Below are positions 1 through 12,323 of a stretch of 61,265 nucleotides of DNA, in pieces; position 1 is the first letter of the stretch, and every line of letters begins with the position of its first letter. The notes beneath the pieces are model-generated. The model did no database searches, had not been told where the DNA came from, and was given only the letters and a program-made list of their open reading frames with translations. The stretch comes from Cyanobium sp. FGCU6 (GTDB lineage: Bacteria; Cyanobacteriota; Cyanobacteriia; PCC-6307; Cyanobiaceae), in the NCBI GenBank assembly GCA_024958655.1, contig JANWUR010000022.1:1-61265 (forward strand), given 5' to 3'. The translations under genes were made by a program, and so were the position numbers.

Positions 1-829
1 TGCTGGAATCAACTGTGGCGCAACGGTTCTGGGTTTCTCAGCAGGCCCTATGTAGCCGGTTGAACAAATCCATAGCGAACCCGCATAAGGCCATGGCTGC
101 AACCCTGCGACCCTCGCGCCAGCTGTTCCAGCAGGGCTTTTGAAGGAGCGGTCGATGAACGGGCCGGATCCAATGCCTACAGGTTGCTGGGCTAAAGCTT
201 CTTGGGCTGATCCGCCCATATTGCGTTCAAAGAATCGGAGATTCCAAACTGAACCAAGGCGCTTTTCGCGCATTGATTTATTGTTCTCGCCGATAATCCT
301 TTTCCAATCGCCTGAAAGTACTTGCTCTCCTGAATATACCAAGTATTAATTTGCGAACCATCTTATCGCTGCATCGCAAAGATCAGGAAAACCGAAGGGC
401 AATCAAGATGATAGCAAAGCACTCAGGGCTGTGGTTTATGCTTTCTAAGCATGTTTGCTCACGCAGAATGAACTGTGAGCATTTTGATTCACGGACCAAT
501 AAAGATTATCATTCTGCCAGGCTTCATGTAGAGTATTGGCAGAAAGCCGCTGGCGATACCGGGTCCGCATAAGATCTCCACCTGCCCACTGTACAATACG
601 CCAATCACACTACCATACTTGCGCTTTGGAGAAATCTGCTGGTTTGCCATCGGCTGGATATGCCGACAACGGCACCCGCCGCAAAGCGGATACCGGACCC
701 GCCCATACAGCGTTCGAAGGTTCGCGCCTATACTTATATGCCAACAAAGCAGATACACGATCGTCAATAAGCTAGAACTTCGAATAAGCGGAAATTAAAT
801 AGCTTAACGCAAATAGGTTAATCTAATTA
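1..829. other. Decayed cassette material, no convincing gene
   Basis: No reading frame here looks like a protein I recognise. Two segments resemble the right halves of attC sites: 209-231, ending GTTCAAA, and 695-718, ending GTTCGAA. Both share the layout CCGCCCATA(n)GCGTTC. The interval between them would be an old cassette that has lost its gene. The stretch ends at the seven-base target CTAATTA (823-829) into which the IS at 830 inserted. Confidence 0.4.
536..718 (+). other. Degenerate attC site (left boundary of cassette 1)
   Basis: The right side is well formed: CGGACCCG stem, spacer, then R' GTTCGAA at 712-718. A left stem CGGGTCCG near 559-566 can pair with CGGACCCG, but the R'' box before it does not read AAC, so the left half has decayed. 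The cut point G^TTCGAA (712/713) is supported independently, because the next attC (5650-5740) has R'' TTCGAAC, the exact complement of G plus the cassette start. Confidence 0.5.
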
Positions 830-1634
830 GGGACTCCTGAAAAACCCAGATCCACTGCGGGGGAGCTGGTTTCAGCGATCGAAAGCCGATAAACTGGCTG
901 TGAACAGGACAATTGACAATTCCTGTAACTGCTGAACGCTGCAGATGTACCGAAAACACCATAACGGGCAGCTCTCAATCGAGGAGTTCCATGTCCCGTT
1001 TGGTGGCACGTTGGACCCGGAGAACCGCTGGGTGGTCTTCTCCTCTCTGATGCCATGGGAAGAGCTGGAAGAAACATATGCCCCTCAGTTCAACCCTACC
1101 ACTGGCGCTCCTGCAAAGCCTGTACGGCTGGCGTTTGGAGCGCTGTTCATCAAGCAGCGGCTCTCCCTGACCGACGAGGAAACCGTCGAGCAGATCAGAG
1201 AAAACGCTTACATGCAGTTTTTCCTTGGCTTTGCCGGCTATTCCAGCAAGGCGCCATTCGACCCATCGATGATGGTTCATTTCCGCAAGCGATTCTCAGA
1301 AGAAGCCCTCAGTCGGGTCAACGAACTGATCGCTGAACGCGGTAAAGCCATGGTGATTGAGGCCTTGTCGAGTCTTCCAGATGACGAAGACTCTGACGAT
1401 CCAGATGACGATGCTGGCAACCAGCTCTCACTCGACGACTTCGTGAAGCCTGCAGATTGGCCAGAGGGCAAGAACTGGGGGACGCTCACCATTGATGCCT
1501 CTTGCACGCCAGCAGACATCACCTATCCGACTGATCTGAAGTTGCTGAACGAGGCGAGGGAGTCGACCGAACGGATCATTGATGATCTCTGCGACCAGCG
1601 CTCAGACCTTCGTAAGCACCGGCCACGATATGAC

Positions 1635-1644
1635 CGTGGTAGGG
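1635..1644. repeat. Target-site duplication of the nested IS, left copy
   Basis: CGTGGTAGGG, repeated exactly at 2887-2896 on the other side of the nested element. Confidence 0.9.
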
Positions 1645-2886
1645 CAGGGCTGATTCAAAGTGTGTCATAGGCCCCCTGGCCGGGGCTGTCAGCATGGGGT
1701 GAGGTCGGCGGAACAGCCTCCTCCTTGTGCTCGAAACCGCTTCTGCTGCAACCGATCTCGACCTGATCAGCTACCTGAAGGCGATCCCTGATACCCGCAT
1801 GCGACGGGGGGTGCGCATCCCGGCCTGGTATCTGCTCCTGGTGGCGGTGCTGGGGATCCTCAGCCGTTGCCATAGCCTGCGGGATCTGGAGCGGTTCGCG
1901 ATCCGCCACCACAGTGTGCTCACCGAGGCGCTTGGGCTGGAGTTGCGGCGTCCACCGTCGGATTCGGCTTTCCGCTATTTCTTCCGGCTTGTCGATGTCG
2001 CCGCCCTCTGCGCCGCCATCCGCGACTAGACGCTCGCTCAGATTCCTGGTGGTGCAGGCGATCTCGACCAGCTGGTCTGTGACGGCAAGACGCTGAGGGG
2101 CTCGATCGAGCCCACTGCTGGCGGCGGCTCGGCATTCATCGCCCAGGTGACGATCTACTCGGCCGCCTTGGGCGTGGCGATCAGCCAGGCTTGCTACGCC
2201 ACCGGCGAAAACCACGAGCGGGCGGTGCTGCGGCAGCTGCTCGGTGAGCTTGATCTGGACGGAGTGCTGATCCAGGCGGATGCGCTCCATACGCAGCGTC
2301 CGTTTTTTGGCAGCTCCAGGAGCAGGGGGCCGACTTCCTCTTGACAGTCAAGGCCAACCAGAAGACGCTCCACCGCCAGATCCGCAGCCAGTTCCAGGGA
2401 ACACGCAAGATCCCATTCGTGGCAACGGATCACGAGGAAAGTCACGGTCGCGAGATCACCTGGACGCTGCGAGCGAAACAGGCACCCGATCACATCGCCG
2501 AGGCCTGGATCGGCACCAGCTGGATCGTGGAGGTGAACGCCAGCGGCAGCCGCGACGGCACGCCGTTCTAGGCAACCCACCTGTTTCTCACCAGCCTGCG
2601 CATCACCCCAGAAGCCTTGCTGCAACTGGTGCGAGACCGCTGGAGCATTGAGGGCTGGCACTGGATCCGCGATACCCAGCTCCATGAGGACGCCCACCGC
2701 TACCGGGGCAATGGTGCTGGCGCGATGGCGACGCTGCGAACGGCAGCCCTGAACTTGCTGCGGCTGACGGGATTTCAATCGATCCGCGCTGGCATGCAGG
2801 CGGTGATGCACGACATCAGGGCCCTGCTGGCGATGGCGCTGCGGCAGCCAACCCCGAGACCAGACTGAAACTTTGAATCAGCCCTG
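1645..2886 (+). mobile_element. ISAs1-family insertion sequence nested in the outer IS
   Basis: The ends are a perfect 17-bp inverted repeat, CAGGGCTGATTCAAAGT at 1645-1661 and its complement at 2870-2886. The element is 1242 bp and is flanked by the 10-bp direct repeat CGTGGTAGGG (1635-1644 and 2887-2896). Family members make target duplications of about this size. The inserted gene is degenerate, yet ends and target repeats are exact. Confidence 0.88.
1727..2868 (+). pseudogene. ISAs1-family transposase, two in-frame stops and a frameshift
   Basis: The gene starts with GTG at 1727. The translation has the ISAs1 hallmarks: IPDTRMRRGVRIPAWYLL near the start, then CDGKTLRGS, ADALHTQRPF and, near the end, RDRWSIEGWHWIRDTQLHEDA. 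It is broken by TAG at 2027-2029 and TAG at 2569-2571, both where family members tend to have an aromatic residue, and by a frameshift at the T6 run near 2305, after which the reading continues one frame over (QLQEQGADFLLTVKANQKTL). About 380 codons in all. A decayed relative lies at 49553-49810 on the other strand. Confidence 0.85.
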
Positions 2887-3923
2887 CGTGGTAGGGCACG
2901 TGCCAACTTCCTCCGTGTTGCCAGGCAGAAGAAGCCACGCCGCCGCAAGATAAAAGCCACGATACGGCGCCAGCTCGACTACCTGCAGCGAAATCTTGAT
3001 GCCATCGATGCTCTGATCGCCTCTGGGGCAAGGCTTTCGGGACTGAAGACGCACTGGTGGCATAAGCTCTTAGTGATCAGCGAGCTGCACCGCCAACAAA
3101 GCATCCTGCTTTACGCCAAAACGCGTAGCATCCCCGACCGCATCGTCAACTTGGTTCAGAGACAGGTTCGTCCCATTGTTCGTGGCAAGGCAAGAGCTGC
3201 TGTTGAGTTCGGTGCCAAGATCAGTGTTGCCGTGCGTAATGGCTTTGCCTTCCTGCACAGGATCAGCTGGGATCCATACAATGAAGCGGAGGATCTGATT
3301 CCACAAGCCAAGAAATACAAGCAAGAATACCGATGTTATCCTGAACGAATCTGCGCCGATCGCATCTACATCAATACCAAGAACCGGAACTTCTGTGCTA
3401 GAAACAATATACGGCTGTCTGGTAAGCGATTAGGAAGACCACCAAAGGATCCAGAGATCAATGCTGCTCACAAGCAGCAGCTCAGCGCAGACCAGCGGAG
3501 GCGAAACGAGGTGGAAGGATGCTTTGGATCAGGGAAGAGGAAGTATTCACTTGATTTGATTATGGCTCGGCTGGCCAAAGTTGCAGAGACATCGATCTCC
3601 ATGGCATTTCTGGTGATGTGCGCAGAGAAGATTAGGAGGCTCCTCCGCCTCTTTTTTGTCATTATCTTTGCCTGCTTCTACGCCTGGCAATGGCCAGGCT
3701 GTCTCTGGATGCTGCTCAGGAGCATTTGGCTGCTTGAGACAGCTGAATCGCTGGTCACTGGATAACCGTGCCTGCGAGCTGTCTCCGCCCTGCTCCCTGG
3801 CCGAAATCGGAACCAGCTCACGATTTGTTTTTTCAGGGATCACTAATTAATAGGTCAGAATTAATTGCTCACCCTTTTGAGGCAGAAAATCTCAAGTTCA
3901 ACATTGCATGGCTGCCGACCTAC

Positions 3924-5417
3924 CTAACCCACGCCTCCGACAAGACCAATTCGCCCAGAAGCAGCCGATTTAACTTGGCAATAAAAGCGTTTGCGTGTGT
4001 CATCAGAAAGAGTTGCAAAGAAAAGGAGCTCTTCGAAGGTTCCAGGTGTCTGCTTGCCGCAAAAAGATATATGTTGAATCTGAGTAAAATGATTTGACTT
4101 AAGTCCATCTTCGGGATACATGCTTGTCGGTGCCTTGAGCCCGACCTCTAAAATGTAGGACTGCTGCTCATCACTTGAATAACCTTCGACAGTCATCCAA
4201 TGCTTCATCTCAGTGAAACATTCTTCATCGAAGAGTGATGTTAAAAGTGGCAAGTCATGCGCCTCTAAAGCTTGAATAATCTGTGATATAAATAAGTTAA
4301 GTAGAGGCTCGTCGGTATACCTCGTTTCCTTTCTCTCCGGCATGTAGTATCCACTTGGAAGCCTCATGGGGAAAACAGGGCATTCTGAAGGATTGTTACA
4401 GCATTGGGAGGCCTGGCTAATAAGGGTGTCGATCTCTTGTGCAACCTCCTGCTGCCATTGATTTAACTGAGTTATGGTAGGCGGATCATTGAAATAGCGC
4501 GTATGTGACTGGACAAATTCAATATCGTTTCTTATGGTTAGTAGCTTTAAGTGCAAACGTTCATAATCGGATAACCTACTGCCTTGAGTGGTTATGTCGA
4601 CTAGATTTGGGCCGACCGGCAAGTTTAGAGTTCGATAATCGGAAACTAGTACCTCATAGGGAACTGGTTGATTAAGCACAATTGAAGGGAATGCGCACAG
4701 CCGCTGCATTACCTCCTCAATGTCATCAGCTAGTCTCTGCTCTTCACCAGTTCCAGCACGTTGATAAGTTGAGATATTTACTTGGCTTTGGGAGATCATT
4801 TCCTTGGTGGTGTTATTGAGCCTCATATCAGCACTCGCTGAAGCAAGAGCACCACCATATTTAGCCTGTAATGATGCTGCAATTTTCTGCTGCATCTCTT
4901 CGGTACTAGATGAAATAGAAATGATTGCAAAGAACTCGCCCCCCATTTGCATGCCACGAACAAACCCATCTCCATATCTCTGCTGGAAAATATCTTGCTT
5001 TCCTGAACTAATTAGCGTAGCTGCTTCTGGCAACAAATTGACATTCTCACAGAGCTTAAATGCATTTTCGACGACACACCTCGCCAAGAGAAAAATTGAT
5101 TGGGATGTAAATCGGGATTCATTAACATACTTAAACTTTCCTGAAGCGGAGAATAAATTGTACTGCCCCGAGGCTCGCGCTGAAACACCAACAGATTCAT
5201 ACAGGTCCTCTAAGGATCGAATTTGCGTTATATTATATGTGACATTTTGACCCGGGGCTCCGGTTGGACCCGATGGCTCACCTGGATTTACACCCTTGCC
5301 AGCTATTGCCCCATTCAGGAGGTTGATCCCCATACCAAAGTTCATTCCTTTTGACCAAGGGATGATCCTCGACTGCTCCACGGTGGGCTCTGAATTAGTC
5401 TCGCCAGATATTAGCAT
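3924..5417 (-). CDS. MACPF-like putative pore-forming protein (cassette 1)
   Basis: The product has 497 residues. Residues 76-110 (SVGVSARASGQYNLFSASGK) and 147-168 (RYGDGFVRGMQMGGEF) resemble the strand and Y-G-x(n)-G-G signature of membrane attack complex/perforin (MACPF) folds. I infer a secreted or self-targeting pore-former, but there is no clear signal peptide. Residues 46-56 have a short Gly-Pro-rich collagen-like stretch (GEPSGPTGAPG). The gene faces left, opposite to the other cassette genes, and fills cassette 1 up to its attC, so it must have its own promoter in the AT-rich DNA at 5418-5500. Base composition is much lower in GC than the chromosome. The family call rests on motif resemblance only. 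Confidence 0.55.
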   Translation of the reverse strand: MLISGETNSEPTVEQSRIIPWSKGMNFGMGINLLNGAIAGKGVNPGEPSGPTGAPGQNVTYNITQIRSLEDLYESVGVSARASGQYNLFSASGKFKYVNESRFTSQSIFLLARCVVENAFKLCENVNLLPEAATLISSGKQDIFQQRYGDGFVRGMQMGGEFFAIISISSSTEEMQQKIAASLQAKYGGALASASADMRLNNTTKEMISQSQVNISTYQRAGTGEEQRLADDIEEVMQRLCAFPSIVLNQPVPYEVLVSDYRTLNLPVGPNLVDITTQGSRLSDYERLHLKLLTIRNDIEFVQSHTRYFNDPPTITQLNQWQQEVAQEIDTLISQASQCCNNPSECPVFPMRLPSGYYMPERKETRYTDEPLLNLFISQIIQALEAHDLPLLTSLFDEECFTEMKHWMTVEGYSSDEQQSYILEVGLKAPTSMYPEDGLKSNHFTQIQHISFCGKQTPGTFEELLFFATLSDDTRKRFYCQVKSAASGRIGLVGGVG

Positions 5418-5649
5418 GAGATCCTTGCGGATTCAATTAATGTCTCTTTTCTTTGTACAAGTCTGCCGCCCCTTGAGAGTATACTATAATTTAGGCAGAT
5501 ATTCCTGGGTAGCCGCAAAAGAAAGATGGTGAGATGACTTATTTGTATCGTCGGATTGGCAATCCCACAAAATCAAGCGAAGAAGCTCGCGTCGAAGAAG
5601 ATATTCAATTCATTTGACAGGCCTAGCGAGATATCGAAAGGACCCACTC

Positions 5650-5740
5650 TTCGAACAAGCCCCTCGAGTGGTCAGGCCACCATCATCTCTCTGCTCCGCC
5701 CCCCAAGCTCCTTGCCTGCCACTCAGGGGCAGCGTTAGCC
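5650..5740 (+). other. attC site 1 (end of cassette 1)
   Basis: R'' TTCGAAC (5650-5656), L'' CCCCTCGAGTGG (5660-5671), L' CCACTCAGGGGC (5719-5730), R' GTTAGCC (5734-5740). L'' pairs with L' apart from one extra C, the unpaired base expected of attC. The AAG and CAGC spacers form the open central region. Length 91 bp. Nearly the same sequence recurs at 7674-7765 and 11370-11461. Confidence 0.92.
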
Positions 5741-5753
5741 CGACAGTAATCAC

Positions 5754-6524
5754 ATGGGTTTTCTAAACGACCATTTTACCAGAATTCGCACCTCTCTACT
5801 CGCGAAAGCTGAAGAGGCAGGAATCCTTCGCCATTCAACCTCCAAGGGTACTGCGCGAGAATTGATCGTTGCTGACTTTCTGGAAAGCTCACTGCCCCGA
5901 GAGTTTGACTTTGTGACCGGAGAGATAACGTCTCCGACTGGCCGCAGATCAGGTCAGCTCGACATAATGTTACTTCCGCAGAGTGCCCCAAGATTTCTTT
6001 TGGCCCCAGGTGTCTCACTCGGTCTCCTTCATGCGGTTACGGCTGTAATCGAAGTAAAATCGGTTCTTTCGACTGCACCTCTATGGAATCCATCGGAACT
6101 TCGGAACGCCATTGAAACTGTGAGGTCTGTTCGTCAGCTAGAGATCAGTCCTAGGCTTGATCCTTGGCCGTGGAGTGCTGCACGCGCGTTAACTTGCGAG
6201 CATATTAAACTCGATCATATCCCAGTATGTGTCGTCGCATTCAAAGGACCCACAATAGAGACGCTACTGGTTTACCTCTCCCAAATTGCCGCTTCCAATA
6301 GGGCTGATCTTCCTAACGTGATCACCTGTCTTGAGCGTGACTACACGCTGATTCTGAATGACGGATGGATTTATAATCCAGCCAAGCTCTCGGAGGATTC
6401 ACGTCAAATGCTTTACTTGAAGGGCGACTGCTCCTCCCTTGTTGACCTTTTCGATTTCCTCATGAAAGTGACTCAAGCATGGACCTACGCGAGTCCACGA
6501 ACTCCCTTTTCACATTATCTGTGA
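5754..6524 (+). CDS. DUF6602 / PD-(D/E)XK nuclease-like protein (cassette 2)
   Basis: The product has 256 residues. The pattern E36, then G-E-I near 57, SGQLD with D70, and V-I-E100-V-K102 matches the PD-(D/E)XK nuclease-like core seen in DUF6602 proteins, which often sit in defence regions. I infer a nucleic-acid cleaving or binding effector. It is the only gene of its cassette: the start codon lies 14 bp after the preceding attC and the stop 20 bp before the next one, a packing typical of integron cassettes. Substrate and trigger cannot be seen. The adjacent cyclase cassette could make a signal for it, but that is speculation. Confidence 0.65.
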   Translation: MGFLNDHFTRIRTSLLAKAEEAGILRHSTSKGTARELIVADFLESSLPREFDFVTGEITSPTGRRSGQLDIMLLPQSAPRFLLAPGVSLGLLHAVTAVIEVKSVLSTAPLWNPSELRNAIETVRSVRQLEISPRLDPWPWSAARALTCEHIKLDHIPVCVVAFKGPTIETLLVYLSQIAASNRADLPNVITCLERDYTLILNDGWIYNPAKLSEDSRQMLYLKGDCSSLVDLFDFLMKVTQAWTYASPRTPFSHYL

Positions 6525-6543
6525 TGAACATCCTCATGTCGCA

Positions 6544-6628
6544 GGCTAACATCCAGATGCAGAAGTCGGGTACAAATGTTGGTTTCTATGCCTAGATCAT
6601 TGCCCGCTTCTGATCTGGAGAGTTAGCC
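6544..6628 (+). other. attC site 2 (end of cassette 2)
   Basis: R'' GGCTAAC (6544-6550), L'' CCAGATGCAGAAG, L' CTTCTGATCTGG, R' GTTAGCC (6622-6628). The stem pairs fully except for one extra G in L''. R'' is the exact complement of the cassette's own start (G|TTAGCC at 5734). A variant of this type recurs at 10402-10485. Confidence 0.92.
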
Positions 6629-6650
6629 TGTCGACCATGGAGTCAATGTG

Positions 6651-7679
6651 ATGGCTGAAACCGCTCGAGTTCATTACGTCTTCTTGGATGTAGTAGGTTT
6701 TACTAAAGATCGGAGTGTCGAGGCACAGTCCGACGTTGTAGCGACCCTAAACACCGTCATCAAAAGTTCGCTGGCGACCGTGAATGCTCCGCAGAATAAA
6801 ACCATCCTTCTCCCGACAGGCGACGGCGTTGCCATCGCTCTCATAAATGCAGTCGGCATAGATACCCATCTCCTACTTGCTCTTCAGGTTCTTCGTATGA
6901 TTGCAGAACAGAACGACACCGCACCAGAGCCATCTAGACGCTTCGAGGTTAGAGTAGGTATAAATGAGAATATCGATAACCTGGTGAAAGATGTCAACGG
7001 CAGACGTAATGTTGCTGGTGCGGGCGTATCCATGGCTCAACGAATCATGGATGTTGCAGATGGCGGACAAATTCTTGTCGGCCCTACTGTTTTCGATAGC
7101 TTGCGACAAAGAGAGCGCTATATGTCGTGCTTTAGGGCCTTCACGGCACGTGGAAAGCACGGCATGACATTCCCTGTTTATCAGTTCGTATCTAAAGAAC
7201 CTGGACTGAACGTTGACATCCCGTCAGTGTTTGCCGTCAAGAAGCGAGCGCCAGAGAAGCTCACAATGTATGCCGCCTATTACTTTGGACACGCTATTGC
7301 GAATCGCGACTTCCTCCTTTCCCGCAAAAGCGACTCCACGAGGGACTATGCAGCTGCCATATTGCTTTCTTTCCTCGCAGAGGATTCCGTGAATGCATCT
7401 GAAACACCTAGTCACGAAGAAGCGACGACGCTTACTTGGAAGTCAGGGATAGCCACGTTTGAAGAGCAGTATAAGCATTATGATGGTCTCGAGTTTGGGG
7501 TTTTGGCTCGTTTCTCAAAGCTACTAACCGACACGCTATCTTCTTATGCGGAGCACTTTGAAGGGGCCCAATGGAGTAAGTCGACTTGGCTGGTAAAGGC
7601 TTCGGGCGTACAGAAACTGATGTCAGAGTGGCCTCAAGTCGCGAGTGAGTTAGGCATCACTGCTGAGGAAGCAGGCTAA
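6651..7679 (+). CDS. Class III nucleotidyl cyclase, Pycsar-like (cassette 3)
   Basis: The product has 342 residues from ATG 6651; a GTG three bases earlier is also possible. The N-terminal 180 residues form a class III cyclase domain: metal-binding D13 (FLDVVGFT) and D58 (LPTGDG), and the late motif NVAGAGVSMAQR (120-131) with R131 kept. By position, the lysine and aspartate that select adenine in adenylate cyclases are replaced (L54 and N120), and the usual transition-state Asn is S127. This agrees with a cyclase using another base, as in the Pycsar anti-phage system, whose cyclases make cCMP or cUMP. The C-terminal 150 residues are helical and unrecognised. It occupies a cassette alone. Product and defence role are inferred. 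Confidence 0.75.
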   Translation: MAETARVHYVFLDVVGFTKDRSVEAQSDVVATLNTVIKSSLATVNAPQNKTILLPTGDGVAIALINAVGIDTHLLLALQVLRMIAEQNDTAPEPSRRFEVRVGINENIDNLVKDVNGRRNVAGAGVSMAQRIMDVADGGQILVGPTVFDSLRQRERYMSCFRAFTARGKHGMTFPVYQFVSKEPGLNVDIPSVFAVKKRAPEKLTMYAAYYFGHAIANRDFLLSRKSDSTRDYAAAILLSFLAEDSVNASETPSHEEATTLTWKSGIATFEEQYKHYDGLEFGVLARFSKLLTDTLSSYAEHFEGAQWSKSTWLVKASGVQKLMSEWPQVASELGITAEEAG

Positions 7680-7765
7680 CAAGCCCCTCGAGTGGACAGG
7701 CCACCAAGAGCACTTTGCTCCGCCAGCCAAAGCTCCTTGCCTGCCACTCAGGGGCAGCGTTATCC
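7674..7765 (+). other. attC site 3 (end of cassette 3)
   Basis: R'' GGCTAAC (7674-7680, overlapping the cyclase stop codon), L'' CCCCTCGAGTGG with the extra C, L' CCACTCAGGGGC (7744-7755), R' GTTATCC (7759-7765). R'' complements the cassette start G|TTAGCC exactly. Close copy of attC site 1, with a changed loop. Confidence 0.92.
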
Positions 7766-7826
7766 GTATCCAGCAAGCCGTCGAGAGGTAGCCGCATCTG
7801 GTACCGGTAGGGAGTACCATGAAGGA

Positions 7827-8081
7827 ATGAAGCGGAAGTACCAGCGCGCCCTTGAGCTGATCTTCTCCCGACCTGTAAGCGGCAGCTTGCCGTGGAGGGA
7901 CATCGAAGCCCTGTTTCAGGAGCTTGGTGGAGAGGTCAGCGAGAGGGCGGGCAGCCGAGTCGCGGTCGTTCTGTTTGGCGAAGTCAGGGTCTTCCACAGG
8001 CCCCACCCATCGCCCAATACAGATAAGGGTGCTGTTGCTTCAATCCGCAAATGGTTCGAAGAACACGGAGTGACACCATGA
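7827..8081 (+). CDS. hicA: HicA-type mRNA interferase toxin (cassette 4)
   Basis: An 84-residue protein with the HicA double-stranded RNA-binding-like fold signature: LPWRDIEALFQELGGEV, then AGSRVAVVLFGEVRVFHRPHP, which contains the position of the catalytic histidine, and RKWFEEHGVTP at the end. HicA toxins cleave mRNA and are held in check by HicB. The start at ATG 7827 is chosen over ATG 7819, which hits a stop after three codons. The stop overlaps the start of the next gene (ATGA, 8078-8081), so the pair is translationally coupled. Confidence 0.85.
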   Translation: MKRKYQRALELIFSRPVSGSLPWRDIEALFQELGGEVSERAGSRVAVVLFGEVRVFHRPHPSPNTDKGAVASIRKWFEEHGVTP

Positions 8082-8410
8082 ATTTGATGAAAGTGGACGG
8101 CTACCAAGCCAAGATTGAGTATGACGAGGAAACGGATCTTTTTCGCGGGGAGATTCTCGGGATTTCTGGTGGAGCAGACTTCTATGGCTCAACCCCAGAT
8201 GAACTTCGTCATGAGTTTAAGAAATCGCTGGAGGTGTTTCTTGAGGTCTGCAAGGAACAAGGAATTGAGCCGCGTAAACAGTATTCAGGTAAGTTCAATT
8301 TGCGAATTCCACCTGAGCTGCATGAGAAGTTGGCGATGACTGCGGAGGTGCAGGGGAAGAGTCTCAACACGCTTGCCCAGGAAGCGCTGCAGAGAAGTGT
8401 TGCTGCATAG
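8078..8410 (+). CDS. hicB: HicB-type antitoxin (cassette 4)
   Basis: A 110-residue protein with a HicB-like N-terminal domain (YQAKIEYDEETDLFRGEILGI, then STPDELRHEFKKSLEVFLEVC) and a C-terminal ribbon-helix-helix DNA-binding part (GKFNLRIPPELHEKLAMTAE, LNTLAQEALQRS). It should neutralise the preceding HicA and repress the pair. The order toxin-antitoxin, with a four-base overlap, fills one integron cassette. TA pairs are common in cassette arrays, where they help keep the array from being lost. Confidence 0.88.
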   Translation: MNLMKVDGYQAKIEYDEETDLFRGEILGISGGADFYGSTPDELRHEFKKSLEVFLEVCKEQGIEPRKQYSGKFNLRIPPELHEKLAMTAEVQGKSLNTLAQEALQRSVAA

Positions 8411-8416
8411 AGGAAA

Positions 8417-8504
8417 GTATAACTTGCCATACACCTGAGCCGCAACCGAAAGGCTATATTCTTTGCCGATCACACCTCGCAACCTCGTGATGGCAGCGTT
8501 CTGC
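8417..8504 (+). other. attC site 4 (end of cassette 4)
   Basis: R'' GTATAAC (8417-8423), L'' GCCATACAC (8426-8434), L' GTGATGGC (8487-8494), R' GTTCTGC (8498-8504). L'' and L' pair except for one extra A. R'' complements the cassette start G|TTATCC at six of seven positions. This type recurs at 9013-9099. R' has C where the consensus has a purine. Confidence 0.82.
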
Positions 8505-8611
8505 GGCACAGAGACCTTGAGTTGCTTGGCGCGTGGCACTGGCCGGATCATGGGCGACCTGAGTAGACTGTTATGAATACCCCAGTGCATCAGTAACCGG
8601 AGGAGCATTCA

Positions 8612-8803
8612 ATGCAAACGATCAAGTACGTTCATTGGCAGGTGGACGATTCCTGGATTGGCTACCTTGAAGAATATCCTGATTACTGGACGCAAGGCGA
8701 AAACCTGGCTGATTTAGTTGAACATTTGAAGGATCTATACCTTGACCTATCAGGTGGCCATATTCAGGGTGCTCGCAAGCTCGGTGAATTAGTCATGCCA
8801 TGA
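8612..8803 (+). CDS. hicB: Short HicB-type antitoxin (cassette 5)
   Basis: A 63-residue protein (IKYVHWQVDDSWIGYLEEYP, then TQGENLADLVEHLKDLYLDL) matching the single-domain HicB antitoxins without a DNA-binding tail. The TGA stop (8801-8803) overlaps the ATG of the next reading frame (8803), a broken hicA. The order antitoxin-toxin is opposite to that in cassette 4, and the two pairs are not close relatives. Confidence 0.8.
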   Translation: MQTIKYVHWQVDDSWIGYLEEYPDYWTQGENLADLVEHLKDLYLDLSGGHIQGARKLGELVMP

Positions 8804-9006
8804 TGCGGGCTGATCTGATCAGGTCGATCGAGCAGGGTGGATGCGTCCTAGTACGCCATGGAGGTAGACATGATTGGTATTGAAATCCAGCTACAGGTGT
8901 CTCGCAGCCAGTGCCCAGGCATCGTGAGATCAAGGAACCGCTTGCTCGCCGCATTATCCGTCTTCTGCTGGATAGCTCGATAGATCCTTCCAGCGGTGAT
9001 AACTGA
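8803..9006 (+). pseudogene. hicA: hicA toxin with one in-frame TGA (cassette 5)
   Basis: Reading from ATG 8803 gives MRADLIRSIEQGGCVLVRHG and GRHDWY, then TGA at 8881-8883, then NPATGVSQPVPRHREIKEPL and RRIIRLLL to a stop at 9004. The whole is a normal 67-codon HicA with its HGGRHDWY catalytic region. The stop sits where relatives often have an arginine or similar residue, so a CGA to TGA change is likely. The antitoxin upstream is intact, which is the expected outcome when the toxin is lost first. Programmed readthrough cannot be excluded. Confidence 0.82.
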
Positions 9007-9012
9007 CTGTCC

Positions 9013-9099
9013 GCAGAACAATGCCATTCACCAGACCCGCCACCATGATGAGCTGGTCTCACCATTGCCTCTTGCAGCCAGGTGATGGCAGCGTTCGGC
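9013..9099 (+). other. attC site 5 (end of cassette 5)
   Basis: R'' GCAGAAC (9013-9019), L'' GCCATTCACC, L' GGTGATGGC (9081-9089), R' GTTCGGC (9093-9099). One extra T in L''. R'' is the exact complement of the cassette start G|TTCTGC at 8498, which confirms both this site and site 4. Confidence 0.88.
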
Positions 9100-9298
9100 C
9101 CACTGCAGTCTGCTTGTTCAACGAGTTTGACTGGGGTGATTTTATAGCTAGAAAGAGAAGTGGAATTTGATGTCGCCACAGAAAGAAACGCGAACAGCCT
9201 GGGTATTCCGTCACTCCTTGACGGGTGCAGCCCAGCTCAGGTGGGATGTGCCAGCAGCCTGGATTAGCGACCCACTTCTAACTTAAACCATCTTACCA

Positions 9299-10207
9299 AT
9301 GAATGTCTTCCTATCACATGCCTCAGAAGACAAAGAAATGGCCGAGCAGATACAGCTGGCATTGGTAGGCGCGGGAATAGATGTGTTTTTCGATTCGGAG
9401 AGTCTTCCCGTTGGTGGTGACTATCATGCGCGCATTCGAAAAGCGGTAGATGACTCCGATCTTTTTATCTTCCTCATTAGCCATCATTCGATTGCCAAGG
9501 GCAGTTACTGCCTCAGCGAACTTGCCCTTGCTCGCGAGAGGTGGCCCCACCCCAAAGGAAGGGTCATTCCTGTTCGAATAAGTGCGGTGTCATTTGATCT
9601 AATTCCCAATTACCTTCGTGCTGTTACCATCCTGGAACCCGATGGAAGCATCCCTGCAGATGTCCTTTCTGTCGTTACCCAAACTAGACCGACAATAGTC
9701 CCCGCATCCACGGTGAAATGGCTACCGCTCCTCGCACTCCTCCTCCTAGCGGGTACAGTTTGGTGGAATGGGCAACGCCTAAAGCCCACCCAAGGAATTC
9801 CGCAGAAACCAGTTGTACAAGGGGAGATCAAGACAGAACAAGCCGTAATGGGCCTGCGGGAACAGTTGGAGAGGATCGCGACGGATCTAAACCGCCGAAG
9901 GAGCGGCACCATGGTTGATGGTCTGATCGTCAACGGAGACATCGTGCCACTCACGGACTTTCTCACTCGTCTGGAGGCAAGTAAACATCTCATCCCCCGT
10001 GATATCCACGACACAATGCAGGAGCAGGGCCTGCTGCTGCTGGAGTTTGCCAATGCACGTGATGATGCCTCTGCCAGTAAAATCATGGACCGCTATGTGA
10101 AACTACGCGAACAGTTTTATCATCAGTTTCAAGAGGCTTACCAGAGCCCTTCCTCACCCACTCCGGCAACCCCACGGCTTTATCCGGAAAGGGGTTTGGT
10201 GGAATAG
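9299..10207 (+). CDS. TIR-domain protein with transmembrane segment (cassette 6)
   Basis: A 302-residue protein. Residues 1-125 form a TIR domain (MNVFLSHASEDKEMAEQI, DVFFDSESLPVGG, SDLFIFLISHHS, SYCLSELALAR). E74 in C-L-S-E-L is the expected catalytic glutamate of NAD-cleaving TIR domains. Residues 144-160 are a membrane segment, and the rest (about 185-280) looks helical and cytosolic or periplasmic. It is alone in its cassette. TIR-membrane proteins act in several bacterial defence systems by draining NAD after a signal. I see no cyclic-nucleotide-binding domain, so the trigger is unknown. Confidence 0.82.
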   Translation: MNVFLSHASEDKEMAEQIQLALVGAGIDVFFDSESLPVGGDYHARIRKAVDDSDLFIFLISHHSIAKGSYCLSELALARERWPHPKGRVIPVRISAVSFDLIPNYLRAVTILEPDGSIPADVLSVVTQTRPTIVPASTVKWLPLLALLLLAGTVWWNGQRLKPTQGIPQKPVVQGEIKTEQAVMGLREQLERIATDLNRRRSGTMVDGLIVNGDIVPLTDFLTRLEASKHLIPRDIHDTMQEQGLLLLEFANARDDASASKIMDRYVKLREQFYHQFQEAYQSPSSPTPATPRLYPERGLVE

Positions 10208-10401
10208 GACAAGGGCGCAAGCATAAGGAATGCACGGCAAAATGGGCCAGCCGCACAGGCGCATCCACGGCCCATACGGCTGGTGCAAGTATCCTCAGAT
10301 GTTATCGATAACCTTAAGGTTGCTGGAGCTGGCTGGCAAGCTCGTATGGATCCTGTTATAAAGGAATGTTTGCACAATCACTCCACTGGAGTTGCGAAGG
10401 G

Positions 10402-10485
10402 GTCTAGCTTCATGATTCAGAAGACGGGAGCGGAGGTAATCGGTACTTCCAAAATCTCGGCCGCTTCTGATCTTGAGCGTTAGAA
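10402..10485 (+). other. attC site 6 (end of cassette 6), degenerate R''
   Basis: L'' TCATGATTCAGAAG (10410-10423) pairs with L' CTTCTGATCTTGA (10464-10476) apart from one extra T and a mismatch, and R' is GTTAGAA (10479-10485). The R'' box reads GTCTAGC (10402-10408) where AAC is expected at the end, and matches the cassette start poorly (4/7), so this half has drifted or an attC has been lost within the cassette. Same type as site 2. Confidence 0.72.
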
Positions 10486-10641
10486 GCATCGGCAAGAGCG
10501 AGCAGAAATGTCCCTTGGGGGAAGCTGGTGCTGATGGCATAAGCAGACCCTGCAGCCCAGCTCCGAGCACCGTGCGACACCCTTGATGATAATACCGTAT
10601 GGCAGCTGGTAGGATGATGGGGTAACGGCGGGGTGCTTGCC

Positions 10642-10899
10642 ATGGCGGTGATCTCACTCAAGTTGCCCGAAGCCCTTGATGCTCAGCTCACAGAGCAGGC
10701 TCATCGTCGTCGGCTGAGCAAGTCTGAGTTGGTTCGACGAGCATTGACGGCGTTCCTCCAGTCCTCAGAGCAGGGAGTGGGAGGCTCTGCACCGCAATCC
10801 GCCGCTGATCTGTTGGCCGATTTGGTAGGTTGTTGTGCTGATGGACCAGCAGATTTATCATCCAACCCTGCTTACATGTCTGACTTTGGTGCAAACTGA
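10642..10899 (+). CDS. Ribbon-helix-helix antitoxin (cassette 7)
   Basis: An 85-residue protein. Residues 1-45 form a CopG-like ribbon-helix-helix: VISLKLPEALDAQLTEQAHR, then LSKSELVRRALTAFL. Such proteins repress their own operon and mask the toxin with their C-terminal tail. The PIN-domain gene begins two bases after its stop codon. Start chosen at ATG 10642 because the ribbon strand begins immediately after. Confidence 0.83.
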   Translation: MAVISLKLPEALDAQLTEQAHRRRLSKSELVRRALTAFLQSSEQGVGGSAPQSAADLLADLVGCCADGPADLSSNPAYMSDFGAN

Positions 10900-10901
10900 T
10901 T

Positions 10902-11309
10902 ATGGTGCTGCTGCTGGATACAGGCCCTTGGGTTGCCCTGTTGAATCGCAACGACACTCATCATAGATGGGCAGTTGAACAGTTTCGATTTTTTCAGCCT
11001 CCATTGCTGAGCTGTGAGGCTGTCGTTGCGGAGACTTGTTTCCTGCTGAAGCGCGCCAGTTTTGATCCCTCGCTGGCTTTGCAGTTCATAGAGCGAGGGG
11101 TAGTTCAATTGCCGTTCGTTCTACAAGAGCAGATCGGCTCTGTGAGTTCACTCTTCAAGCGTTATGAGAATGTTCCTGCCTCTCTTGCTGATGCTGCTTT
11201 GATTCGGCTGGCGGAGATGAACGACTCACCGTTGCTTCTCACTACCGACAGCGACTTCCATATCTACCGTCGCCATGGAAGACAAACGATTCCTTTGGTC
11301 AGTCCGTGA
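10902..11309 (+). CDS. PIN-domain ribonuclease toxin, VapC-type (cassette 7)
   Basis: A 135-residue PIN domain: acidic residue D6 in LLLDTGPWVALL, E near 44 in AVVAETCFLL, D in SLADAALIRLAE and the late acidic pair in LTTDSDFHIYRR. These residues bind the metal ion used to cut RNA. Paired with the ribbon-helix-helix gene just upstream. Together they fill the last cassette of the array. Confidence 0.87.
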   Translation: MVLLLDTGPWVALLNRNDTHHRWAVEQFRFFQPPLLSCEAVVAETCFLLKRASFDPSLALQFIERGVVQLPFVLQEQIGSVSSLFKRYENVPASLADAALIRLAEMNDSPLLLTTDSDFHIYRRHGRQTIPLVSP

Positions 11310-11369
11310 TTGTAGGGATCGTACAGTCGATGCGAAGGTCTGCTGGCGTTGCCTGTGGAGAAGCGACAC

Positions 11370-11461
11370 TTCGAACACACTCCTCGTGTGGACAGGCCTA
11401 CACCTAATCACTGCTCCGCCAACAAAGGCGCCCTGCCTGATACTCAGGGGCAGCGCTCGAG
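11370..11461 (+). other. attC site 7 (end of cassette 7), altered R'
   Basis: R'' TTCGAAC (11370-11376), L'' CTCCTCGTGTGG, L' ACTCAGGGGC (11442-11451), R' GCTCGAG (11455-11461). R'' matches the cassette start G|TTAGAA at six of seven positions. The R' box has GCT instead of GTT at the cut, so the site may be inactive. It is the last attC; chromosomal sequence leading to rpsD follows. Confidence 0.78.
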
Positions 11462-11640
11462 TGATTTTCATGTTTTTTGCCAGCCCAGGGCGTCAACATC
11501 GGCAGATGACGTGAGTGGTTCCTTGCTGCTTGTCTTTCGAACTGAGCCTGCTCCGAGGAATTCTGGGCACTGGGCTTGTGCCGCTCCTTGCTCACCACCG
11601 CGCTGCCACCGAATCGCGCCGCTGCTTGCCTGCCCACCAG

Positions 11641-11664
11641 AAAGCCCCCGCCATCGGCAGGGGC
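11641..11664 (-). terminator. Probable terminator of rpsD
   Basis: On the minus strand the stem GCCCCTGCC pairs with GGCGGGGGC around a GAT loop and is followed by TTTCT, about 50 bases after the rpsD stop. Confidence 0.7.
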
Positions 11665-11714
11665 CTGAAGTGCGGCAGGCCCCTGGGCGCTGCCGCGGAA
11701 GCGGTGGACCGGCC

Positions 11715-12323
11715 TCAGACCTTACGGCTGTAGAACTCGACCACCAGCAGTTCGTTGATCTCCAGGGCCACCCACTCCCGCTCGCATCTACCCACCACCT
11801 TGGCGGTGAGCTTGGGCTTGTCGAGTTCGAGGTGCGGGGGGATGTTGGCCAGGCCGGGGAACTCCAGGTTGCCTTCGGCCAGCTTCTTGCTGCACTTGCG
11901 CTCGCGCACGGCGACCACATCGCCGGGGCGGCACTGGTAGCTGGGGATGTCGACCAGCCGCCCGTTCACGGTGACGTGCCCGTGGTTCACGAACTGGCGG
12001 GCGCCCGGCACGGTGGGGCCGAAGCCCAGGCGGAAACAGACGTTATCGAGACGGTTCTCGAGCAGCTTGAGCAGGTTGGTTCCGGTGGAACCCTCCTGGG
12101 CACGGGCTTTCTTCACGTAGCGGACGAGCTGACGTTCGGAAATGCCGTAGTTGAAGCGAAGCTTCTGCTTCTCTTCCAGACGGATCGCGTATTCGGAGCG
12201 CTTGCGACGGGCTTGGCCGTGCTGACCGGGGGGATAAGCCCGCTTGGCGGACTTACGGGTGAGACCGGGAAGGTCCCCCAAGCGCCGCGTGATCCTCAGG
12301 CGAGGGCCGCGGTAGCGAGACAT
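11715..12323 (-). CDS. rpsD: 30S ribosomal protein S4
   Basis: A 202-residue protein, normal for bacterial S4. It begins [20 protein letters not shown], and the S4 RNA-binding domain at about 92-155 includes [20 protein letters not shown] and [12 protein letters not shown]4 binds 16S rRNA early in small-subunit assembly. It is transcribed leftward toward the end of the cassette array, as a single gene with its own terminator; yidD is divergent on the other side. Confidence 0.98.

Follow-up and report, generated by a model that had tools for sequence, protein, structure and literature searches.

The 61,265-nucleotide stretch of the Cyanobium sp. FGCU6 genome analysed here (contig JANWUR010000022.1 of assembly GCA_024958655.1, forward strand; hereafter the window) begins with what is very probably the cassette-bearing end of a chromosomal integron. 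An integration site, attI, is followed by seven gene cassettes whose attC recombination sites all lie in a single orientation. The array's own integrase gene, intI, is absent from the contig, and one of the three intact integrases that the same genome encodes elsewhere likely acts on the array in trans. We give this reading a probability of about 0.88. An integron cassette array in a picocyanobacterium had been proposed in an earlier note on this DNA, made from its letters, and is upheld by an attC model, by the attI and by the intI genes of the genome.

Firstly, we searched for attC with a covariance model, R2, trained on 26 sites (7 from C17 and C45, two other contigs of this genome, plus 19 from related loci, the window being excluded) that were padded with N to equal length before alignment. 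Over the 61,265 bases, on both strands and at E<=10, R2 gave exactly seven matches, all on the plus strand, 84-92 nt long and separated by gaps of at most 1.4 kb (Table 1). These are the same seven sites, in one orientation and of that length, that the earlier note had counted, and the covariance-model check that it proposed scored every one of them. An earlier, mostly sequence-based model (R1; 14 sites from C17, C36 and C45, none from the window) found six of the seven at E<=1.2e-6 and attC 4, at 8417, at E 0.26, its best match elsewhere being at E 0.026. R1 kept just four base pairs (MAFFT had gapped the shorter attC type) and was superseded by R2. The sites follow one geometry: an R'' box ending in AAC, 2 bases, 6 bp, an unpaired base, 6 bp, an unpaired base, 4 bp and the loop. 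The stem carries two unpaired extra bases (6-6-4 bp arms), where a single one had been claimed, and three unrelated sequence types (a, b and c) fill this one geometry. Among the 26 training sites, 97.8% of cells are paired, with two-sided changes at 12 of the 19 pairs, compared with 32-42% in a control in which partner columns were slid by one to three; the first percentage is biased upwards because the sites were chosen partly by pairing, a choice that does not fully explain the spread of pair types. When the cleaved strand was folded, the seven attC gave z-scores from -5.9 to -0.7, weak evidence when taken alone. The minimum-energy fold of attC 7 (at 11370) differs from the attC hairpin, and attC 4 and attC 5 (at 8417 and 9013) have mismatches in the stem. 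An Rfam search of the window returned no family reaching its gathering threshold. A loose pairing scan (threshold 11.5) was abandoned: 40 shuffles of positions 1-12000 averaged 10.5 hits each on the plus strand, with a top score of 14.6. A scan cut-off of 15-16 was used instead. Genome-wide, R2 gives an estimated 63 attC matches over 20 contigs when 150 of 3547 candidate places are scored, a search that missed attC 4 and whose weakest match has E 1e-3.

Secondly, we located the attI. Window positions 523-720 align with the region beyond intI on C17 (C17:95061-95258; 76% over 198 nt, E 1.2e-33), the alignment beginning inside the end of the C17 intI, and with the post-intI stretch of C36 (70%, E 1.5e-16). 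An attI profile without rows from the own genome matches window 555-722 at E 2.5e-16, the next match being at E 1.2. The site ends in ACCGGACCCGCCCATACAGC, then GTT, and its insertion point lies 180 nt past the stop, the same distance as in locus L039. At base 712 the window reads GTTCGAA, the exact complement of the R'' box of attC 1 (TTCGAAC); hence the array starts with attI, and cassette 1 spans 713-5734. We took 31 intI loci, our own included, that have an attC at most 6 kb downstream. In 19 of them the complement of the first-cassette R'' lies 167-206 nt past the intI stop, compared with a mean of 2.4 and a maximum of 6 when the R'' boxes were dealt among the 31 loci (200 deals). The earlier note had listed the array from 536; no attC lies there, and the position falls inside the attI at 532-712. 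A second, decayed attI at 59-238 was considered, prompted by 38 bases (209-246) that resemble the right end of the L026 attI, and not upheld: when the profile included rows from the own genome it reached E 0.0027, and without those rows its core alone matched, at E 1.2.

An intI beside attI, as a complete integron has, is lacking at this locus. With 32 full-length IntI frames as queries, tblastn returned nothing in window 1-900 (best E 0.47) and nothing across all 61,265 bases (best E 0.043). Of the array's own intI, no more than the final codons survive, at about 523-531, in a possible reading frame assigned from position. The IntI gene that the earlier note had proposed to search for to the left was found neither there nor in the window; three intact intI genes stand elsewhere in the genome.

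Thirdly, we characterised these integrases. The three intact intI score 461, 455 and 450 bits against TIGR02249 (curated cut-off 265) and are located well inside other contigs; C17, C36 and C45 each hold an intI with an attC array, the gene standing upstream of attI and cassettes on the same strand (the 'inverted' layout, from which the window lacks intI). A fourth copy is broken (C47:238379-239117). The C17 IntI gave a match at E 2.4e-90, covering residues 15-322 of 325, to 2a3v, a solved structure deposited under the name IntI4, and this alignment contains what we take to be the family's arginine, histidine and tyrosine motifs. For comparison we used 80 of 308 IntI loci. A strict scan of these gave 48 attC in 32 loci, 46 of them downstream on the intI strand and the other two on the opposite strand, and a shuffled control (one copy per locus) gave 0 hits. 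In an IntI tree of 73 rows (70 open frames from the 80 fetched loci plus our three), 31 of the 34 labelled cyanobacterial rows fall with the three own copies in one supported group (100/98), which also takes in one contig from a metagenome-assembled genome labelled Gammaproteobacteria; IntI of Pseudanabaena and Leptolyngbyaceae are placed outside this main cyanobacterial group. Locus L114, labelled Gammaproteobacteria bacterium MED690, has an integrase that groups with that of one uncultured Synechococcus and attC of picocyanobacterial types, and is probably a misbinned contig.

The same components recur across the genus. R2 matched attC at E<=1e-5 in 42 of 42 genus genomes (10 candidates scored per genome, some of the genomes having supplied training sites), and IntI was matched at E<=1e-20 in 38 of the 42, many of these matches being fragments below the cut-off. 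In a sample of 400 genomes of the family, at these same thresholds, 101 had an attC match, 92 an IntI match and 68 an IntI above the cut-off. Class-wide, in a sample that includes a few genomes from the host family, 181 of 388 genomes matched TIGR02249 at E<=1e-20 and 124 of 388 exceeded the curated cut-off. Integrases in the host family may be gained and lost often. Broken or partial intI often accompany intact copies in many genomes of the family.

In the mechanism that we propose, one attC strand would fold into a hairpin that IntI would cleave at the R' box, and cassettes would leave as circles to re-enter at attI or at another attC. The intact integrases elsewhere in the genome would likely move the window cassettes, and we propose that the C17 integrase would be the one acting on this array because its attI is the closest (76%). 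The last cassettes look locked, since attC 6 has no clean R'' box and attC 7 no GTT core. A circular form joins the end of a cassette to its own start, and so predicts an R'' box complementary to that start. We surveyed 219 partly overlapping loci (2.67 Mb) that yielded 279 distinct cassettes and 440 distinct attC, both made distinct by sequence; one shuffled copy of all this DNA gave two hits. In the cassette list of the window, four weak attC from the covariance model were added by hand and scan hits left of 5000 were removed. The outer four R'' bases complement the cassette's own start in 195 of the 279 cassettes, the start of the next cassette in 27 and a random start in 16; where own and next starts differ (251 cases), the own start is matched in 174 and the next in 6. 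In the window, the R'' of cassette 1 likewise matches its own start, and among cassettes 2-7 all four outer bases match in three cassettes, three of the four match in two cassettes and two of the four in the remaining one. Cassette bodies also recur, and they end at recombination points in other genomes. The HicAB body of cassette 4 is found at 85-90% identity in six loci (L103, L088, L246, L255, L279 and L310) and begins at the identical G^TT after attI in L103, after a type-b attC in L246 and after a type-a attC in the window; L246 holds both HicAB and cassette 5 (90%), in an order different from that of the window. These fingerprints in the sequence point to cassettes that would move as circles cut at G^TT.

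Several observations weigh against our favoured reading, besides the upward bias of the pairing percentage mentioned above. Four of the seven attC are imperfect or decayed (at 8417, 9013, 10402 and 11370), folding z-scores are modest at five of the seven, and 12 of the 31 intI loci have no first-cassette R'' complement at the expected place. The contig holds no nearby intI and its left flank ends at a repeat, so that action in trans is something we infer; cassette recombination at this array is likewise predicted from sequence. The insertion sequences nested in cassette 1 make recent turnover at this end improbable. Some of these features also speak for a dead array, whose attC and attI would be relics on which no integrase acts and whose genes would be retained by toxin-antitoxin addiction. 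The decay of attC 4, 6 and 7, the nested insertion sequences, and the loss of intI at the window together with the further intI broken on C47 all fit this view. However, attI and attC 1-3 are sequence-intact, three intact intI are still in the genome and its other arrays contain high-scoring attC, and we hold a dead array to be unlikely, though plausible enough to be kept in mind.

It could also be that the integron is complete, with its intI just beyond the left end of the contig, from which an insertion sequence at 1-55 has separated it. The contig does break at this multi-copy sequence, which is probably an insertion-sequence end and whose copies, judged from locus lengths, each sit a few bases at most from where a contig ends, and the attI stands in an otherwise normal position behind an intI stop. 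Yet positions 56-520 lie between the break and the attI and encode no IntI (tblastn best E 0.47), and the three intact intI are all on other contigs, well away from their ends; we consider a hidden adjacent gene improbable. The spread of 63 matches over 20 contigs would also be expected if the sites were ordinary dispersed repeats that have inverted ends, for instance miniature inverted-repeat transposable elements. This notion is already contradicted by the linkage of the sites to intI and attI and by the complementarity of R'' to the cassette's own start, and it sits poorly with the single orientation of the sites in the window and their distribution, one to each gene or gene pair, with R boxes carrying AAC/GTT and with a stem geometry common to three unrelated types; it is scarcely credible.

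The survey also bears on how a gene body is tied to its attC. We tentatively propose, at somewhat under even odds, that body and attC are separable modules in picocyanobacterial cassettes, and that the attC may be replaced by cuts at R'', most likely made by the integrase on the top strand. A gene usually keeps its attC type: the attC arms are >=80% alike in 160 of 206 homologous cassette pairs. They are <60% alike in 38 of the 206, which sit in 6 of 19 clusters (random pairs average 59%). One flagged cluster (9 pairs, all via L302) was a scan register error and was excluded; another (L088/L217/L242/L255/L266/L297) is doubtful, with ~70% body identity and no pair reaching R''. Four families remain (4, 2, 6 and 9 pairs), giving 21 pairs whose bodies match up to R''. 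A smaller earlier run had flagged 2 of 24 clusters, with type labels that left the window HicAB unassigned. In the 21 swapped pairs, identity is 73% across the 60 bases that precede R'', 95% within the box itself and 40% across the 20 bases that come next; the same three stretches give 86, 98 and 93% in 135 unswapped pairs and 49, 71 and 58% in random pairs. The bodies of the best swapped pair, L221/L297, are 93% identical, and a single family of six carries attC types a, b and c. The window HicAB has a type c attC; the other copies found carry type a. The swapped families are window 7760-8504 with L246, L255, L279, L310, L103 and L088; L039/L246/L270; L221/L257/L291/L297/L307/L311; and L113/L196/L215/L242/L247/L254/L300. 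When translated, the swapped examples beyond HicAB appear by eye to be small toxin-antitoxin pairs. Simple deletion of an L246-like array was considered as the source of the HicAB attC and rejected, the attC before cassette 5 being type b in L246 versus type c in the window.

Homologous recombination would have just the seven-base R'' box as its substrate. Cleavage of the top strand at R'' by the integrase would join one body to the attC of another cassette, the proposed cut being the mirror image of the known R' cut. According to the sections of PMC5371416 covered, the top strand recombines ~1000-fold less often than the bottom strand; a related proposal, for attI-derived sites that combine the attI1 L-box with R'', appears in the part of PMC12901181 covered. 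In the literature searched, covered in part and thinly for subscription journals, we found no account of an entire attC being replaced at R''. If the proposal is true, R'' cuts would give genes new attC and offer a concrete route to cassette formation. The swapping pattern bears on the open question of gene-cassette origin: in the same sections of these sources, de novo cassette formation is called largely unknown (PMC5371416) and the genesis of gene cassettes is ranked among knowledge gaps (PMC12901181).

Table 1. Features of the integron locus and its flank, in window coordinates (E values of attC from the covariance models)
Feature	Position	Strand	Basis
Multi-copy end sequence where the contig breaks	1-55		Seven other contigs of the genome match it at 98-100%
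Possible relic of final intI codons, stop TAG 529-531	523-531	+	Alignment with C17:95061-95258
attI	532-712	+	Homology to intI-linked stretches on C17 and C36; insertion at G^TT, base 712
Cassette 1, split by insertion sequences	713-5734	+	Starts GTTCGAA at 712, R'' TTCGAAC
Insertion sequence nested in cassette 1 (DUF772 / DDE_Tnp_1_2 transposase pieces)	~824-3850	+	Pfam
Cassette 1 gene, 497 aa	3924-5417	-	Without Pfam or PADLOC match
attC 1 (type a)	5650-5740	+	R2 E 1.4e-19
Cassette 2: DUF6602, PD-(D/E)xK nuclease-like protein (gene 5754-6524)	5735-6622	+	Pfam E 7e-18
attC 2 (type b)	6544-6628	+	R2 E 7.2e-13
Cassette 3: class III nucleotidyl cyclase-like protein (gene 6648-7679)	6623-7759	+	Pfam Guanylate_cyc E 4e-8
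attC 3 (type a)	7674-7765	+	R2 E 1.3e-19
Cassette 4: HicA toxin (7827-8081), HicB antitoxin (8051-8410)	7760-8498	+	Pfam
attC 4 (type c, decayed)	8417-8504	+	R2 E 1.6e-4, R1 E 0.26
Cassette 5: 63-aa open reading frame (8612-8803), no family	8499-9093	+	
attC 5 (type c)	9013-9099	+	R2 E 7.7e-9
Cassette 6: TIR-domain protein (gene 9299-10207)	9094-10479	+	Pfam TIR_2 E 3e-21
attC 6 (type b, R'' box altered)	10402-10485	+	R2 E 3e-8
Cassette 7: ribbon-helix-helix antitoxin (10633-10899) and PIN-domain toxin (10902-11309), VapBC-like	10480-11455	+	Pfam
attC 7 (type a, R' core GTT gone), array end	11370-11461	+	R2 E 2.2e-7
rpsD, chromosomal flank after the array	11715-12323	-	Pfam Ribosomal_S4

The seven cassettes had been described as small in the earlier note; their number stands, and cassette 1 additionally holds nested insertion sequences (Table 1). 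The element at 824-3850 has inverted ends (824-844/3829-3849) and is interrupted at ~1675-2880, inside its transposase gene, by a second element with broken reading frames that we take to be ISAs1-like. Relatives and fragments of these elements are present on several other contigs of the genome. The arms 2-55 and 823-876 are 72% complementary. In PADLOC, the cassette 2 protein matches PD_DExK at E 3e-21, with a distant resemblance to NucC (E 4e-8), and there is no match for the cassette 3 cyclase. The body of cassette 5 is 90% identical to its L246 counterpart. The NucC-like nuclease, the class III nucleotidyl cyclase and the TIR protein each occupy their own cassette, a trio that presumably recalls parts of cyclic-nucleotide defence systems. 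The cargo as a whole (two toxin-antitoxin pairs, TIR, nuclease and cyclase) suggests a predicted role in phage defence or array stabilisation.

As the earlier note had it, the array sits beside rpsD, which follows attC 7 on the minus strand. The gene was found in 36 of the 42 genus genomes. A conserved integron seat beside it was considered and rejected: among 30 rpsD loci (29 from other genomes) searched with R2 over flanks of up to 1.5 kb, the window locus alone carries attC, so the rpsD site is not a shared seat. In genome G348 an attC lies some 12 kb from rpsD on the same contig. In genome G292, which has the closest rpsD (98%), a second, partial rpsD 3' end (L194 8181-8404) lies 1.3 kb from the full gene and resembles a trace such as an integrating element might leave.

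Integrons have been studied mostly in proteobacteria. Photosynthetic plankton are probably being reshaped as well by this means of gene capture, best known from work on other bacteria, and the presence of integrons across a whole phototroph genus makes cassette traffic directly testable in cultured picocyanobacteria. What makes the system worth following is its scale in these organisms, together with the possibly separable attC. The statement in the earlier note that integrons are known mostly from proteobacteria and a few other phyla needs amending: in the parts covered, surveys already record cyanobacterial integrons (PMC2426708, PMC8352920, PMC8618304), and one of the three made a covariance model from cyanobacterial attC, so the phylum is no surprise. 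In those parts, the surveys name the phylum only. Our literature searches found no study of integron arrays in Cyanobium and kin.

The chromosomal integrons of Treponema have the 'inverted' layout, and their IntI clusters with a Synechococcus IntI, in the part of the report covered (PMC3607928). Like them, the arrays described here are chromosomal, with intI upstream on the cassette strand; unlike them, this genome has three intact intI and at least one array without an adjacent intI, and three attC sequence types are mixed within single arrays. In the sections of PMC9668308 covered, a cluster of attC lacking integrase (CALIN) is defined by sites <4 kb apart. The window fits this definition, with several attC <4 kb apart and no adjacent intI; unlike a CALIN, its cluster retains an attI, which makes it a broken integron and not a bare cluster. 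The same sections describe archaeal integrons in which attI lies directly downstream of intI and most of which are arrays without intI. Here, too, attI directly follows intI and arrays without intI occur; in contrast to the archaeal cases, the host is bacterial and its IntI belongs to a supported, almost wholly picocyanobacterial group. The window array is a known kind of system, typical in its parts, that has kept its attI without an adjacent integrase.

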